DNA of 64,000 bases from Dyella jiangningensis. GTDB lineage: Bacteria > Pseudomonadota > Gammaproteobacteria > Xanthomonadales > Rhodanobacteraceae. This document shows positions 13,887 to 18,892 of the stretch, one piece after another. The position numbers and the translations under genes were made by a program. The stretch covers positions 1,240,001 to 1,304,000 of the forward strand of contig NZ_NFZS01000001.1 in assembly GCF_003264855.1 (NCBI RefSeq). The letters run 5' to 3'. The notes beneath the pieces were generated by a model, which saw only the letters and a program-made list of their open reading frames with translations, was not told the origin of the DNA and did no database searches. Position 1 is the stretch's first letter; the number at the start of each line of letters is the position of its first letter.

Positions 13887-15626
13887 GTGCTGAGCAGGTG
13901 GTCCAAGTTCAAGCAAGTGCGGCATTTTGCGATCGGCGGCATGGTGGCTCTGGTGCTGGCCGGATGCGCTTCGGTGCCGGGCGGAGCGAGGCACCAGGCC
14001 AATGCGTCCAGCCAGCCCCTGGACAAGCTGGTGGTCGTCACCCCCGATGAAGACCATGACCTGCTCGCCCAGCTCCTTGCCGGCGAGATGGCGCTCACCC
14101 GCACCGATCTCAAGACGGCCTCGGCGACCTACGGCCGGGCCATGATGCTCTCCAACGACCCCAAGGTGGCCGAGCAGGCCGCCGCGCTGGCGGTCGCCAT
14201 ACGCGACGCCCCGGCGGCCGAAGCGGCCATCAACCGCTGGCAGGCGCTCGGAGCCAAGCCCGCCGGCTTGGCCCAGGCGCGCGCCCAGCTCGCGCTGAGC
14301 CAGGGCAACACCGACGAAGCCCGCCGTCAGCTCGAGCTGCTGGTCGGCACCGGTGATCCGGACGCCTGGCGCCAGTTCGGGCGGGTCCTGGTCGGCAGCC
14401 GCGATCCGGCCCAGGCGGCGCAACTGCTCGAAGCCGTCGCGACGCCCCAGCGATTGCCGGCCGACCCGCAGGCCTGGCTGGCGATGAGCGAGCTGGGCGA
14501 CAAGCTCGGCCGCCACGCCTATGCCCTGCAGATCGCTGAGGGCGCCGTGAAGCGTTTCGGCACGGGCGAGACCTACGCCTGGCTGGGCCAGATGAAGTAC
14601 CACGATGGCGACAAGCTTGGCGCCAAGGCGTTGTTCGACAAGGCGATGGCCAAGGATCCGAAGAACACTCACCTGCGCCTGGCCTACGCCACGCTGCTGG
14701 GGCAGGGTGGCGACTACGCCGCGGCCGCGAAGCTGCTGGACAACGGCCCGCAGGATGCCGACATCTACGCCATGCGCGCCGCCCTGGCCGCGCGCGCCAA
14801 CGACACCAAGACGATCACGCGCCTCTACGGCCAGATCCAGCGCTCCTCCGAGGACGTGCGCCAGAGCAATGCCTTCCTGCTCGGCCAGCTCGCCGAGATG
14901 CTCGACAAGAAGGAAGAAGCGCTGAAGTGGTACGACCAGGTCGCGGATGACGACGACCATGCCTTCGACGCGGACGTGCGCAGCGCCGTGCTGCTGCAGG
15001 ACCTCGGCCGCAGCGCCGAAGCCCACGAACAGCTGGCGCAGATGCAGACCGACTATCTCGACCAGCCGGCCCTGCTGCGTCGCGCCTACGAGGTGGACGC
15101 CGAGCTGTACATGAACGAGCAGCAGTACGCCCAGGCCGAGCGCTCGTTCAGTCGCGCGTTGCAGGTGACGCCGGACGATCCTGCGCTGCTCTACGGTCGC
15201 GGCCTCGCCTTTGCCGAATCCGGTGACATCGATCACGCCGTGAGCGATTTCAGGCATCTGCTGCAACTCAAGCCCGACGACACCGACGCCAGCAATGCGC
15301 TGGGCTTCACGCTCGCCGACGCCAATCGCGACCTGCCGGAGGCGCAGCGCCTGATCGAATCGGCGCGCGCGGCACGTCCGAACGACCCGGCGATCGAGGA
15401 TTCCTGGGGCTGGCTGCAATACCGCCTCGGACATCTGGACCAGGCGGAAAAGTCGCTGCGCGGGGCATGGACCGCTCGCAAGGATGCCGATGTCGGCGTG
15501 CATCTGGGTGAAGTGCTGTGGAAGCAGGGACGCCAGGAAGATGCGCGGCGCGTATTCGACGAAGTGCGTAAGATCGACCCGCAAAGCGCCACCCTCCACA
15601 ACACTCTCAAGCGCCTCAATCCATGA
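13887..15626 (+). CDS. Tetratricopeptide-repeat lipoprotein
   Basis: This 579-residue protein starts at a GTG preceded by a GGAG site. It has a lipoprotein signal peptide with the lipobox LAGC (MVALVLAGCASV), so it is probably anchored in the outer or inner membrane, facing the periplasm. The remainder is a run of about ten or more TPR-type helix pairs, with AKTLFDKAMAKDPKNTHLRL-like and LLYGRGLAFAESGDIDHAV segments. A partner-scaffold role is likely. Its stop overlaps lolB by four bases (ATGA), so the two are coupled, and a role in outer-membrane or lipoprotein biogenesis is inferred. Such a TPR gene before lolB is common in this order. Confidence 0.85.
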   Translation: MLSRWSKFKQVRHFAIGGMVALVLAGCASVPGGARHQANASSQPLDKLVVVTPDEDHDLLAQLLAGEMALTRTDLKTASATYGRAMMLSNDPKVAEQAAALAVAIRDAPAAEAAINRWQALGAKPAGLAQARAQLALSQGNTDEARRQLELLVGTGDPDAWRQFGRVLVGSRDPAQAAQLLEAVATPQRLPADPQAWLAMSELGDKLGRHAYALQIAEGAVKRFGTGETYAWLGQMKYHDGDKLGAKALFDKAMAKDPKNTHLRLAYATLLGQGGDYAAAAKLLDNGPQDADIYAMRAALAARANDTKTITRLYGQIQRSSEDVRQSNAFLLGQLAEMLDKKEEALKWYDQVADDDDHAFDADVRSAVLLQDLGRSAEAHEQLAQMQTDYLDQPALLRRAYEVDAELYMNEQQYAQAERSFSRALQVTPDDPALLYGRGLAFAESGDIDHAVSDFRHLLQLKPDDTDASNALGFTLADANRDLPEAQRLIESARAARPNDPAIEDSWGWLQYRLGHLDQAEKSLRGAWTARKDADVGVHLGEVLWKQGRQEDARRVFDEVRKIDPQSATLHNTLKRLNP

Positions 15627-16249
15627 AGCTCCCCGTTCGTCTACTCGCGGCAGCGTTGCCGCTGCTGCTGGCCGCGTGCGTCCACAAGGAAGCCGTGCGT
15701 CCGGTCCAGGCCGACTACGCCGTGCTGCTCGATCAACAACGCGCCCGCGAACATCAGCTGGCCAAGGTCGACCACTGGGTACTGCAGGGCAAGATCGGCG
15801 TGTCCGGCCAGGTCAACGGCAAGAGCGACGGCGGTAGCGGCACGCTGACCTGGACCCAGAACGGCGACAACTACGACTTCGTCGTGCGGGGCCCGGTGGG
15901 CGCCAAGAGCTTTCGCTTGAGCGTGACGCCTGACGGCGCCGTGCTTGATGGCCTGGAGGGCGGCCCGGTACGCAGCCCGGACGCCGAATCGCTGGTGGAA
16001 AAGGCACTGGGCTGGCATGTGCCGCTGCGTGACCTGCGCGCCTGGGCGCTGGGCCTGCGTGCCGACAGCGGACCGGCCGAGCTGAAGTTCGGCCCCGATG
16101 GCCTGCCTTCGCAGCTGTCCCAGGATGGCTGGATCGTGAGCTATCCCGCTTGGGACACCACGCACCCGCAGGCCGTGCCGAGCAAGGTGTTCGCCGAAAA
16201 CCCGCCGAACAAGGTGAAGCTGTCGGTGGAATCCTGGAACTTCCAGTAA
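15623..16249 (+). CDS. lolB: Outer-membrane lipoprotein receptor LolB
   Basis: LolB accepts lipoproteins from LolA and inserts them into the inner leaflet of the outer membrane. The 208-residue protein has its own lipobox (LLAAC in LLAAALPLLLAACVHKE) and the LolB beta-barrel half with WVLQGKIGVSG, GGSGTLTWTQNGDNYDFVV and a C-terminal PNKVKLSVESWNF strand. The start is fixed by the ATGA overlap with the upstream TPR gene and by the signal peptide. The following spacer holds a palindromic repeat instead of the tight junction to ispE seen in relatives. Confidence 0.93.
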   Translation: MKLPVRLLAAALPLLLAACVHKEAVRPVQADYAVLLDQQRAREHQLAKVDHWVLQGKIGVSGQVNGKSDGGSGTLTWTQNGDNYDFVVRGPVGAKSFRLSVTPDGAVLDGLEGGPVRSPDAESLVEKALGWHVPLRDLRAWALGLRADSGPAELKFGPDGLPSQLSQDGWIVSYPAWDTTHPQAVPSKVFAENPPNKVKLSVESWNFQ

Positions 16250-16260
16250 TCCGATCTTTT

Positions 16261-16396
16261 TCCCTCTCCCCTCGGGGGAGAGGGCAGGGTGAGGGGCCAA
16301 TCTTGCGATAACCCGCCAGTGACGAGCGCTTTGTAGCCGCCCTTGCCGCGAGCACCCACCCCTCACCTCGATCCTCTCCCCAGCGGGGAGAGGAGG
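16261..16396. repeat. Inverted pair of palindromic CCCTCTCCCC-type repeats
   Basis: Two hairpin units face each other. The left unit has CCCTCTCCCC (16262-16271) with its complement to 16284, followed by a CAGGGTGAGGGG tail. The right unit starts with CCCCTCACC (16359), then CCTCTCCCC (16373-16381), loop AGC, and GGGGAGAGG (16385-16393). Unit plus tail and tail plus unit form a larger imperfect palindrome, the usual layout of paired REP-like elements. The right edge supplies the purine-rich stretch (GAGGAGGAAGAG) just upstream of the next start codon. Confidence 0.8.
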
Positions 16397-16409
16397 AAGA
16401 GCAAATAGC

Positions 16410-17804
16410 ATGACCTTCCACATCGAACGTGCCCAACCCGATCAGGTCGATGCCCTCTGCGCCATCGAACGCGCCGCCGTTGAGCTGTTCCGCGGCCATC
16501 GCGCCTGGCGCTCTTACCGCGACGTCTCGGTGCCGCCCGAGGTGCTGCGCGAAGCGATCGCGCGCGGCCTGGTATGGGTCGCCGTGATCGGCTCGGGCGA
16601 ACCCGTCGGCTTCATCTGGCTGGACGCGGAGCAGGGCGGCCATGCCATCGGCGTCGCCGAAATGGATGTGCTCCCCTCGCACGGCCAGCGCGGCATCGGC
16701 GCGGCCCTGTTGGAATACGCCTGCGGCTGGGCCCGCATGGCGGGCTATCACCGGGTCGACCTCGGGACGCTGTCCGACGTGCCCTGGAACGCGCCGTTCT
16801 ATGCGAAACACGGCTTCGCCGTGATGGACAAAACCCTCCCCGAGTTCGCCTTCTACCGCGAACGCGACCGCGAGAACGGTTTTCCGGACGACTTGCGCGT
16901 CTTCATGAGCCGGCCGTTGCCGCCGCCCGATCCGGCCGACTGGACCGTCTGGCCGGCGCCCGCCAAGGTGAACCTGTTCCTGCGCATCACCGGTCGTCGG
17001 CCTGACGGCTACCACGACCTGCAGACCGTGTTCCGCCTGCTCGACTGGGGCGACGAGATCCGTTTGCGCCCCCGGCGCGACGGTGAAATCCATCGCCTGA
17101 CCGACGTCCCCGGCGTACCGGCCGAGACCGACCTGGTGGTGCGCGTCGCGCGCCTGCTGCAACCCCATGCGCCGGCCGGTTCCGGCGTGGACATCGAAGT
17201 GGAGAAGCGCATCCCCATGGGCGGCGGCCTGGGCGGCGGCAGTTCGGATGCGGCCACGGTGCTGGTGGCCCTCAATCGCCTGTGGGACGCCGATCTGGAC
17301 GAGGACGACCTGGCCGAGCTGGGTCGCCAGCTGGGAGCCGACGTTCCGGTGTTCGTGCGTGGCCGTTCAGCCTGGGCGGAGGGCATTGGCGAAAAGCTCA
17401 CGCCCATGGCCCTGCCGGAGCGCTGGTACGTGGTACTGGACCCCCACGAACACGTGCCGACCGGAGCGCTTTTTCAAGCGTCTGAATTGACACGAAATGC
17501 TCCGCCCGCCACAATTTCATCCTTTGCTTCGGGCGAAACGGTCGAGAACGCGTTCGCGCCCGTGGTTCGCGCGCGACACCCGCGCGTAGCCGCGGCGTTG
17601 GACTGGCTCGACGGCTTCGGCCGGGCAAGGCTTTCCGGCAGCGGTGCGTGTGTGTTCCTGGAGACGGACTCCCCGGAACGTGCCGAGGCCATCGCGGAGC
17701 GCTGTCCCGCCCGGTTTACGGCCCATGTGGCCAAGGGCGAGGACGTCTCTCCGCTGCTTGTCGCCCTGGCGCGCCATCGCGGCGTCGACGGAGCGGCAGG
17801 GTAG
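16410..17804 (+). CDS. ispE: GNAT acetyltransferase-IspE fusion (4-diphosphocytidyl-2-C-methyl-D-erythritol kinase)
   Basis: One open frame of 464 residues joins two enzymes. Residues 1-170 are a GNAT acetyltransferase with the acetyl-CoA loop SHGQRGIGAALLEYA and the C-terminal features NAPFYAKHGF and RVFMSRPL. From about residue 178 the sequence is IspE, the ATP-dependent kinase of the MEP isoprenoid pathway. It has the lysine motif PAPAKVNLFLRITG, the GHMP ATP loop PMGGGLGGGSSDAATVL, the catalytic aspartate in GADVPVFV, and the C-terminal LSGSGACVF. No stop separates them. An internal ATG at 16905 (residue 166) could start a 299-residue IspE of near-normal size, but no clear ribosome site precedes it. 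It lies between lolB and tRNA-Gln, the normal ispE position. Confidence 0.9.
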   Translation: MTFHIERAQPDQVDALCAIERAAVELFRGHRAWRSYRDVSVPPEVLREAIARGLVWVAVIGSGEPVGFIWLDAEQGGHAIGVAEMDVLPSHGQRGIGAALLEYACGWARMAGYHRVDLGTLSDVPWNAPFYAKHGFAVMDKTLPEFAFYRERDRENGFPDDLRVFMSRPLPPPDPADWTVWPAPAKVNLFLRITGRRPDGYHDLQTVFRLLDWGDEIRLRPRRDGEIHRLTDVPGVPAETDLVVRVARLLQPHAPAGSGVDIEVEKRIPMGGGLGGGSSDAATVLVALNRLWDADLDEDDLAELGRQLGADVPVFVRGRSAWAEGIGEKLTPMALPERWYVVLDPHEHVPTGALFQASELTRNAPPATISSFASGETVENAFAPVVRARHPRVAAALDWLDGFGRARLSGSGACVFLETDSPERAEAIAERCPARFTAHVAKGEDVSPLLVALARHRGVDGAAG

Positions 17805-17821
17805 GAAAATCCAGTTTCTAC

Positions 17822-17898
17822 TGGGGCGTCGCCAAGCTGGTTAAGGCACAGGATTTTGATTCCTGCATGCGAAGGTTCGAATCCTTCCGCCCCAGCCA
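17822..17898 (+). tRNA. tRNA-Gln (anticodon TTG)
   Basis: A cloverleaf is visible with acceptor TGGGGCG (17822) paired to CGCCCCA (17888-17894), discriminator G and encoded CCA at 17896-17898. The anticodon loop TTTTGAT gives TTG for glutamine and the T arm contains GGTTCGAATCC. It sits 17 bases after ispE and 31 before prs, so it is probably cut from the same transcript. Confidence 0.95.
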
Positions 17899-17929
17899 TT
17901 TCACACGTGGCTCATCAGGTTCCTAAAAC

Positions 17930-18892
17930 ATGACTGTCGATACGTCAGGTCCGATGCTCTTCACCGGCAACGCCCATCGCGCGCTTGCCGAGGATGTCGC
18001 CCAGCGTCTTGGCGTGCCCCTGGGCAAGGCGCTCGTCGGTCGCTTCAGCGACGGCGAGACCCAGGTGGAGATCGAAGAGAACGTCCGCCGGCAGGAAGTG
18101 TTCGTGCTGCAGCCCACGGGCGCGCCGAGCGCGGAAAACCTGTTCGAGATGCTGACCCTGGTGGACGCGCTCAAGCGCGCCTCGGCAGCCAGCGTCACCG
18201 CGGTAATGCCGTACTTCGGCTATGCCCGCCAGGATCGTCGCCCGCGCTCGGCGCGCGTGCCGATCACGGCGAAGATGGTGGCCAAGATGATCGGCACCGT
18301 GGGTGTGGATCGCGTGCTCACGGTCGACCTGCACGCGGACCAGATCCAGGGCTTCTTCGACATCCCGGTGGACAACGTCTATGCCTCGCCGGTGCTGCTG
18401 GCGGACATCTGGCGCAACCACAGCATGGACGACCTGATCGTGGTCAGCCCGGACGTCGGCGGCGTGGTGCGCGCCCGTGCGATGGCCAAGCGCCTCGACG
18501 ACGCGGACCTGGCGATCATCGACAAGCGCCGTCCGAAGGCGAACGTCGCCGAAGTGATGAACATCATCGGTGAAGTCGAAGGCCAGACCTGCGTGCTGGT
18601 CGACGACATCGTCGACACCGCCGGCACTCTGTGTGCGGCTGCCGCGGCGCTCAAGGAGCGCGGCGCCCGCAAGGTGGTGGCGTACTGCGTGCACCCGGTG
18701 CTGTCGGGCGCGGCGCTGAAGAACATCGAAGGCTCCCAGCTCGACCAGCTGGTGGTCACCAACACCTTGCCGCTGCGGCCGGACATCGCCTCGTGCAGCA
18801 AGATCCGTCAGCTCTCGGTCGCCGAGCTGCTGGCGGAAACGATCCGCCGCATCGCCTTCGGCGAGTCGGTGAGCTCGTTGTACATCGACTGA
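17930..18892 (+). CDS. prs: Ribose-phosphate pyrophosphokinase
   Basis: Prs makes PRPP from ribose 5-phosphate and ATP for purine, pyrimidine, histidine, tryptophan and NAD synthesis. The 320-residue protein has the N-terminal [16 protein letters not shown] and the ATP/metal site [12 protein letters not shown]. It also has the metal-binding [17 protein letters not shown] and the PRPP loop [13 protein letters not shown], with class I spacing. The C-terminal SVSSLYID is typical. It follows tRNA-Gln and precedes rplY, an order conserved from Xanthomonas to Pseudomonas. Confidence 0.97.

Follow-up and report, generated by a model that had tools for sequence, protein, structure and literature searches.

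The locus considered here raises the question of why a GNAT acetyltransferase domain and IspE, a kinase of the MEP pathway, share a single reading frame in a lineage of soil bacteria, and whether the two have anything to do with each other in function. Within the window, the whole stretch of 64,000 nucleotides of Dyella jiangningensis DNA that was analysed, an ORF read gave one uninterrupted frame of 464 amino acids on the plus strand, running from the ATG at 16410 to the stop at 17804. We consider it likely that this frame encodes one two-domain protein and represents a fixed gene fusion, with linked expression of independent modules and no regulatory coupling. The tasks of the two halves are probably separate, because relatives that switched isoprenoid pathway have wrecked or deleted the IspE half but kept the acetyltransferase.

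Domain composition of the fused gene

The features of the locus, in positions of the window, are as follows.

15623..16249, plus strand: lolB, upstream neighbour, in conserved gene order
16410..16919, plus strand: GNAT acetyltransferase domain, residues 1-170 with C-terminus ...LRVFMSRPL; Pfam PF13508/PF00583; stops where unfused homologues stop
16905..16907, plus strand: internal ATG, coding for the invariant GNAT Met166; proposed as IspE start in the earlier note
16920..16943, plus strand: short linker, residues 171-178 (PPPDPADW), from the GNAT end to the first residue of the IspE profile
16944..17804, plus strand: IspE (CDP-ME kinase) domain, residues 179-464 plus stop, assigned on TIGR00154, motifs and the 1oj4 fold
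17487..17515, plus strand: candidate nested promoter TTGACA-N17-CACAAT within the ispE frame, from a sigma70-like scan, codon invariance and retention after ispE deletion
17822..17898, plus strand: tRNA-Gln(UUG), from ARAGORN on L001/L261 and a search of the own genome
17930..18892, plus strand: prs (ribose-phosphate diphosphokinase), downstream neighbour, in conserved gene order

The conserved gene order thus reads lolB-[GNAT]-ispE-tRNA-Gln-prs. Between lolB and the fusion gene (16258-16405) there are inverted repeats, CCCTCTCCCC...GGGGAGAGG, which look like dispersed intergenic repeats.

The first half was recognized by two GNAT profiles, both at residues 46-137 (PF13508, 2.5e-12; PF00583, 5.3e-12) and both above the gathering cut-off (46.5 versus 20.7 bits for PF00583 and 47.4 versus 27 bits for PF13508). 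The acetyl-CoA binding motif (Q/R)-x-x-G-x-G/A is present as QRGIGAA, with both glycines unchanged in all 20 rows of the alignment, and in the NCBIfam profile comparison no named family reached its cut-off for this half. The IspE equivalog TIGR00154 scored 268 bits (cut-off 138.7) over residues 179-449, and the catalytic motifs are there (the Lys in PAKVN, the Asp in LGADVP, and PMGGGLGGGSSDAA), as are the glycine loop PMGGGLGGGSS and LSGSGA. An AlphaFold2 model of the full protein, based on an alignment of 33 homologues, had a mean pLDDT of 89.6 and a pTM of 0.89. In this model the IspE half superimposed on E. coli IspE (1oj4) with a TM of 0.95 and an rmsd of 1.3, and the GNAT half on PA2271 of Pseudomonas aeruginosa (9cr5) with a TM of 0.90. 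Modelled alone, the GNAT half had a pLDDT of 93.5 and again PA2271 as best solved match (Z 25.6 over 168 residues, rmsd 1.6).

Given the homology and the intact motifs, the IspE half would act as the CDP-ME kinase of the MEP pathway. Of the MEP genes that were checked in the genome of the window, Dxr, IspF and IspH were all found, and HMG-CoA reductase (HMGR), used here as the marker for the mevalonate pathway, was absent. The GNAT half is a predicted acetyl-CoA-dependent acetyltransferase, whose acceptor may be an amine outside the MEP pathway. Its conserved DVxWNAPFY stretch is common to the unfused relatives, and the substrate class is for this reason probably older than the fusion. Among MEP users the pN/pS values amounted to 0.12-0.23 for GNAT and 0.16-0.25 for IspE, which indicates purifying selection on both halves.

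Distribution of the fusion

A search for related loci recovered 55 fused loci at 55-96% identity, from Dyella, Rhodanobacter, Luteibacter, Frateuria and MAGs. When the same domain order was sought in other Rhodanobacteraceae (233 family genomes surveyed), the tables gave an in-frame fusion in 137 of the 145 genomes of 17 genera, a count that includes a few loci truncated at a contig end or containing an insertion. The earlier note's reading of an in-frame GNAT-IspE fusion is thereby confirmed: one frame of 464 amino acids with both domains complete, found in 17 genera. The suspicion that a missed stop or an indel, introduced in sequencing or assembly, merely joined two adjacent genes has a negligible chance of being correct: the same fusion recurs in 55 contigs at 55-96% identity, and the identical frame in the 137 genomes belongs to different species and includes complete genomes, which rules the artefact out. 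In Rhodanobacter sp. OK091 (G188; L019/L145) the IspE half carries an in-frame insertion of ~22 residues within an otherwise normal fusion.

Eight genomes are without the fusion. In six of them the GNAT is present but an intact IspE is missing, and for the other two, G166 and G199, no fused gene was recovered; since G166 has Dxr and lacks HMGR, a gap likely explains its missing match. In the remaining nine genera of the family, IspE has no such GNAT in front or is missing altogether. The latter holds for many genomes of genus g2 and for G036, and HMGR was present in those tested. Unfused relatives of the GNAT occur in Xanthomonadaceae, distant from the ispE locus, and a GNAT adjoining ispE, as a possible source of the fusion, was found in none of the ten Xanthomonadaceae regions that were read. 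Plasmids and phages yielded only GNATs below 60% identity.

The junction and the internal ATG

The end points of unfused homologs define the junction. GNAT-only loci end in ...LRVFMSRTLxx-stop, matching the ...LRVFMSRPL of the fused GNAT, and the unfused Xanthomonadaceae relatives end in ...LRVVMRRSLPVC-stop; homology to unfused IspE starts with W-x-x-WPAPAKLN, about 12-16 residues past MSRPL. The fusion therefore consists of two whole proteins and a short linker. The proposal that MSRPL serves both as GNAT end and as IspE start does not hold, as this element ends the GNATs of the family and the IspE homology begins later. It follows that an ATG is expected at 16905, whether it is a start codon or not.

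This bears on the possibility of a nested gene, in which the internal ATG would also, or mainly, start the translation of IspE. All 94 fused genes do have an ATG here. However, Met166 is invariant among the GNATs and recurs in the GNAT-only loci and the unfused Xanthomonadaceae GNATs. Moreover, synonymous variation at codons 151-180 is ordinary (0.46-0.51, as elsewhere), and the anti-Shine-Dalgarno pairing upstream of 16905 does not exceed that of random codons, although the GNAT start does no better, which makes the pairing a weak argument. Among the 94 fused genes we found neither a conserved ribosome-binding site nor any constraint on synonymous sites at the internal start. Considering the conservation of the methionine and the lack of synonymous constraint, the nested start raised in the earlier note was rejected as very improbable.

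The fused gene in mevalonate-type relatives

The genus that includes Dyella dinghuensis, D. mobilis, D. acidiphila and D. lipolytica (g7) has HMGR in 16 of 16 genomes and IspF in none of the 16. Together with a genome of another genus (G198), 17 genomes were checked, all with HMGR and without IspF, and 16 of them without IspH; the one g7 genome with IspH is the draft G082. As to Dxr, some g7 genomes lack it, others have a degenerate form and G074 has an intact one; in G198 Dxr, IspF and IspH are all missing and the fused gene (L056) has a dead IspE half. In the 16-row HMGR clade and L056, every row except two shows loss of IspE motifs or deletion of IspE, and the GNAT is intact throughout; within g7 the IspE half is intact in G074 (L055) and G082 (L033). 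The IspE half is full-length but has lost several of GYH, the glycine loop and the catalytic Asp in L036, L049, L050, L051, L168, L170, L173 and L175. Five genomes contain a clean GNAT gene of 173 amino acids between lolB and tRNA-Gln-prs, IspE being deleted. In G079 (L113/L147/L260) the GNAT has its own stop, and residues 122-278 of IspE follow out of frame; this remnant looks like a fossil intermediate, in which the catalytic N-part of IspE is gone and the promoter described below is kept. On the GNAT tree, the loss of IspE represents two events. Within the HMGR clade pN/pS was 0.20 for GNAT versus 0.43 for the N-part of IspE.

As the GNAT persists under purifying selection where IspE is dead or deleted, it has a job that requires neither IspE nor the MEP pathway. 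The earlier note had raised the idea of acetylation being linked to the MEP pathway; the lineages in which MEP genes were lost but the GNAT stayed contradict it. Functional coupling, with IspE, a further MEP enzyme or a MEP intermediate as the target of the GNAT and the fusion as a regulator of isoprenoid synthesis, could account for the stability of the fusion across 17 genera. However, the GNAT retains all motifs and remains under purifying selection where the MEP pathway is broken, even after deletion of IspE, and sister genera that retain IspE use it without the GNAT. The relatives thus serve as a natural test, and its outcome speaks against coupling. On these comparisons it is unlikely that acetylation is tied functionally to the MEP pathway, and we regard the regulatory form of such a tie as quite improbable. 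The persistence of the GNAT after IspE loss implies that its role can be separate; it may still affect IspE where both are intact.

The relatives also show the course of decay of a fused enzyme half once its pathway has been replaced, and the most interesting question is why dead IspE halves remain in frame. In mevalonate-type lineages the dead half may now serve the GNAT as a stabilising or regulatory pseudo-enzyme. Nine rows with a full-length, in-frame but dead IspE, with two separate lineages among them, and a pN/pS below 1 for the dead half are in line with such a role. On the other hand, two lineages lost the IspE half yet kept the GNAT, and the best-kept region is the 3' part, which holds the nested promoter, so that some of its conservation is explained at the DNA level. 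In addition, some of the same genomes have a Dxr that is dead yet full-length, its 3' end being conserved; this points to slow decay as a general process within operons. We therefore consider the pseudo-enzyme unlikely, albeit less so than the regulatory coupling discussed above. Somewhat less probable again is the broader proposal that the dead IspE is a kept partner tuning the GNAT in the relatives and that the intact IspE likewise influences the acetyltransferase in the lineage of D. jiangningensis.

The preferred reading of independent modules would involve the following events. A stand-alone PA2271-like GNAT gene would have landed between lolB and ispE in the ancestor of the 17 Rhodanobacteraceae genera and subsequently been joined in frame to ispE, with some 8-12 residues as linker. 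The protein may nevertheless be cleaved after translation or be initiated internally as well. The GNAT and IspE modules would be made together and fold independently, the IspE half phosphorylating CDP-ME in the MEP pathway and the GNAT half, given its predicted fold, moving an acetyl group from acetyl-CoA to an amine outside that pathway. Upon takeover by the mevalonate pathway the IspE half would decay or be deleted, and the GNAT half would stay.

A putative promoter of tRNA-Gln within ispE

Comparison of the loci made clear that the ispE deletions keep a short piece of ispE, GAATTGACA-N17-CACAATTT, which in the window corresponds to 17484-17517, within codons ELTRNAPPATIS. Intragenic promoters are well known in bacteria. 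The sequence TTGACA-17-CACAAT has 10 of 12 matches and stands alone as a sigma70-like site in 16200-18000, where 0.1 are expected. Both hexamers, at a spacing of 17 that lies in the 16-18 bp range for such promoters, are conserved more strongly than coding requires. Across the 94 fused genes the promoter codons are GAA in 94, TTG in 94, ACA in 93, ACA in 93 and ATT in 92, whereas overall TTG makes up 16% of the Leu codons and ACA 17% of the Thr codons in the same genes; synonymous variation at the promoter goes down to 0.12-0.26. The form TTGACA-N17-(C/G)ACAAT is found in ispE of L059-L080 and L134-L146. Among 36 unfused ispE genes from further gamma- and betaproteobacteria, TTG ACA and A(C/A)A-AT recur with identical spacing in 34. 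The two exceptions are two loci of one Hydrocarboniphaga genome, and in all scanned loci of this set a tRNA-Gln(UUG) lies just downstream. In contrast, E. coli ispE has CTC CCG at the promoter position and is not followed by tRNA-Gln.

The distance from the -10 element to tRNA-Gln was 258-364 nt in the measured loci with ispE and 58-81 nt in five deletions (L114-L118). According to a sequence search of the own genome, the tRNA-Gln(UUG) at 17822-17898 is the only close copy. The existence of a sigma70-type promoter nested in the ispE frame is strongly supported by these comparisons; it would drive tRNA-Gln and perhaps also prs.

Within genera, synonymous variation is lowered over the whole 3' third of ispE (17445-17760), for example 0.20 versus 0.37 in Dyella. 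This region is wider than the promoter and maybe acts as leader of a tRNA-Gln/prs transcript. In HMGR-bearing genomes two Dxr sequences (L255 and L258, of G078 and G073) are full-length but degenerate, and L257 and L259 are intact; the last ~60 residues of the degenerate pair are nearly unchanged, perhaps reflecting another nested element for downstream genes.

In the literature searched we found no earlier account of an ispE-tRNA-Gln promoter. The likely presence of such a promoter would limit the evolution of ispE and would matter for attempts to delete or recode the gene.

Comparison with known systems

The open papers that were searched held nothing relevant on an IspE-GNAT fusion, and the joining of a GNAT to an essential MEP enzyme, stable throughout the clade, is apparently new to that literature; neither was anything found there on the function of PA2271. 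The latter is the best solved relative of the GNAT half (75 bits by sequence, 32% identity), although it is a stand-alone protein of about 172 amino acids and the Dyella GNAT is a fused half. IspE of E. coli has the same fold as the Dyella IspE, with about 50% identity and the catalytic Lys, Asp and glycine loop in common, and the two loci share the lolB-ispE-prs neighbourhood; the N-terminal GNAT domain is lacking in IspE of E. coli, as in that of the sister genera. A bifunctional MEP gene fusion has been described in the form of IspDF (PMC10663253, PMC13001223), which resembles GNAT-IspE in being a gene fusion with a MEP-pathway enzyme. However, IspDF combines two MEP enzymes, whereas the partner in GNAT-IspE is an acetyltransferase that is kept where the pathway is absent.
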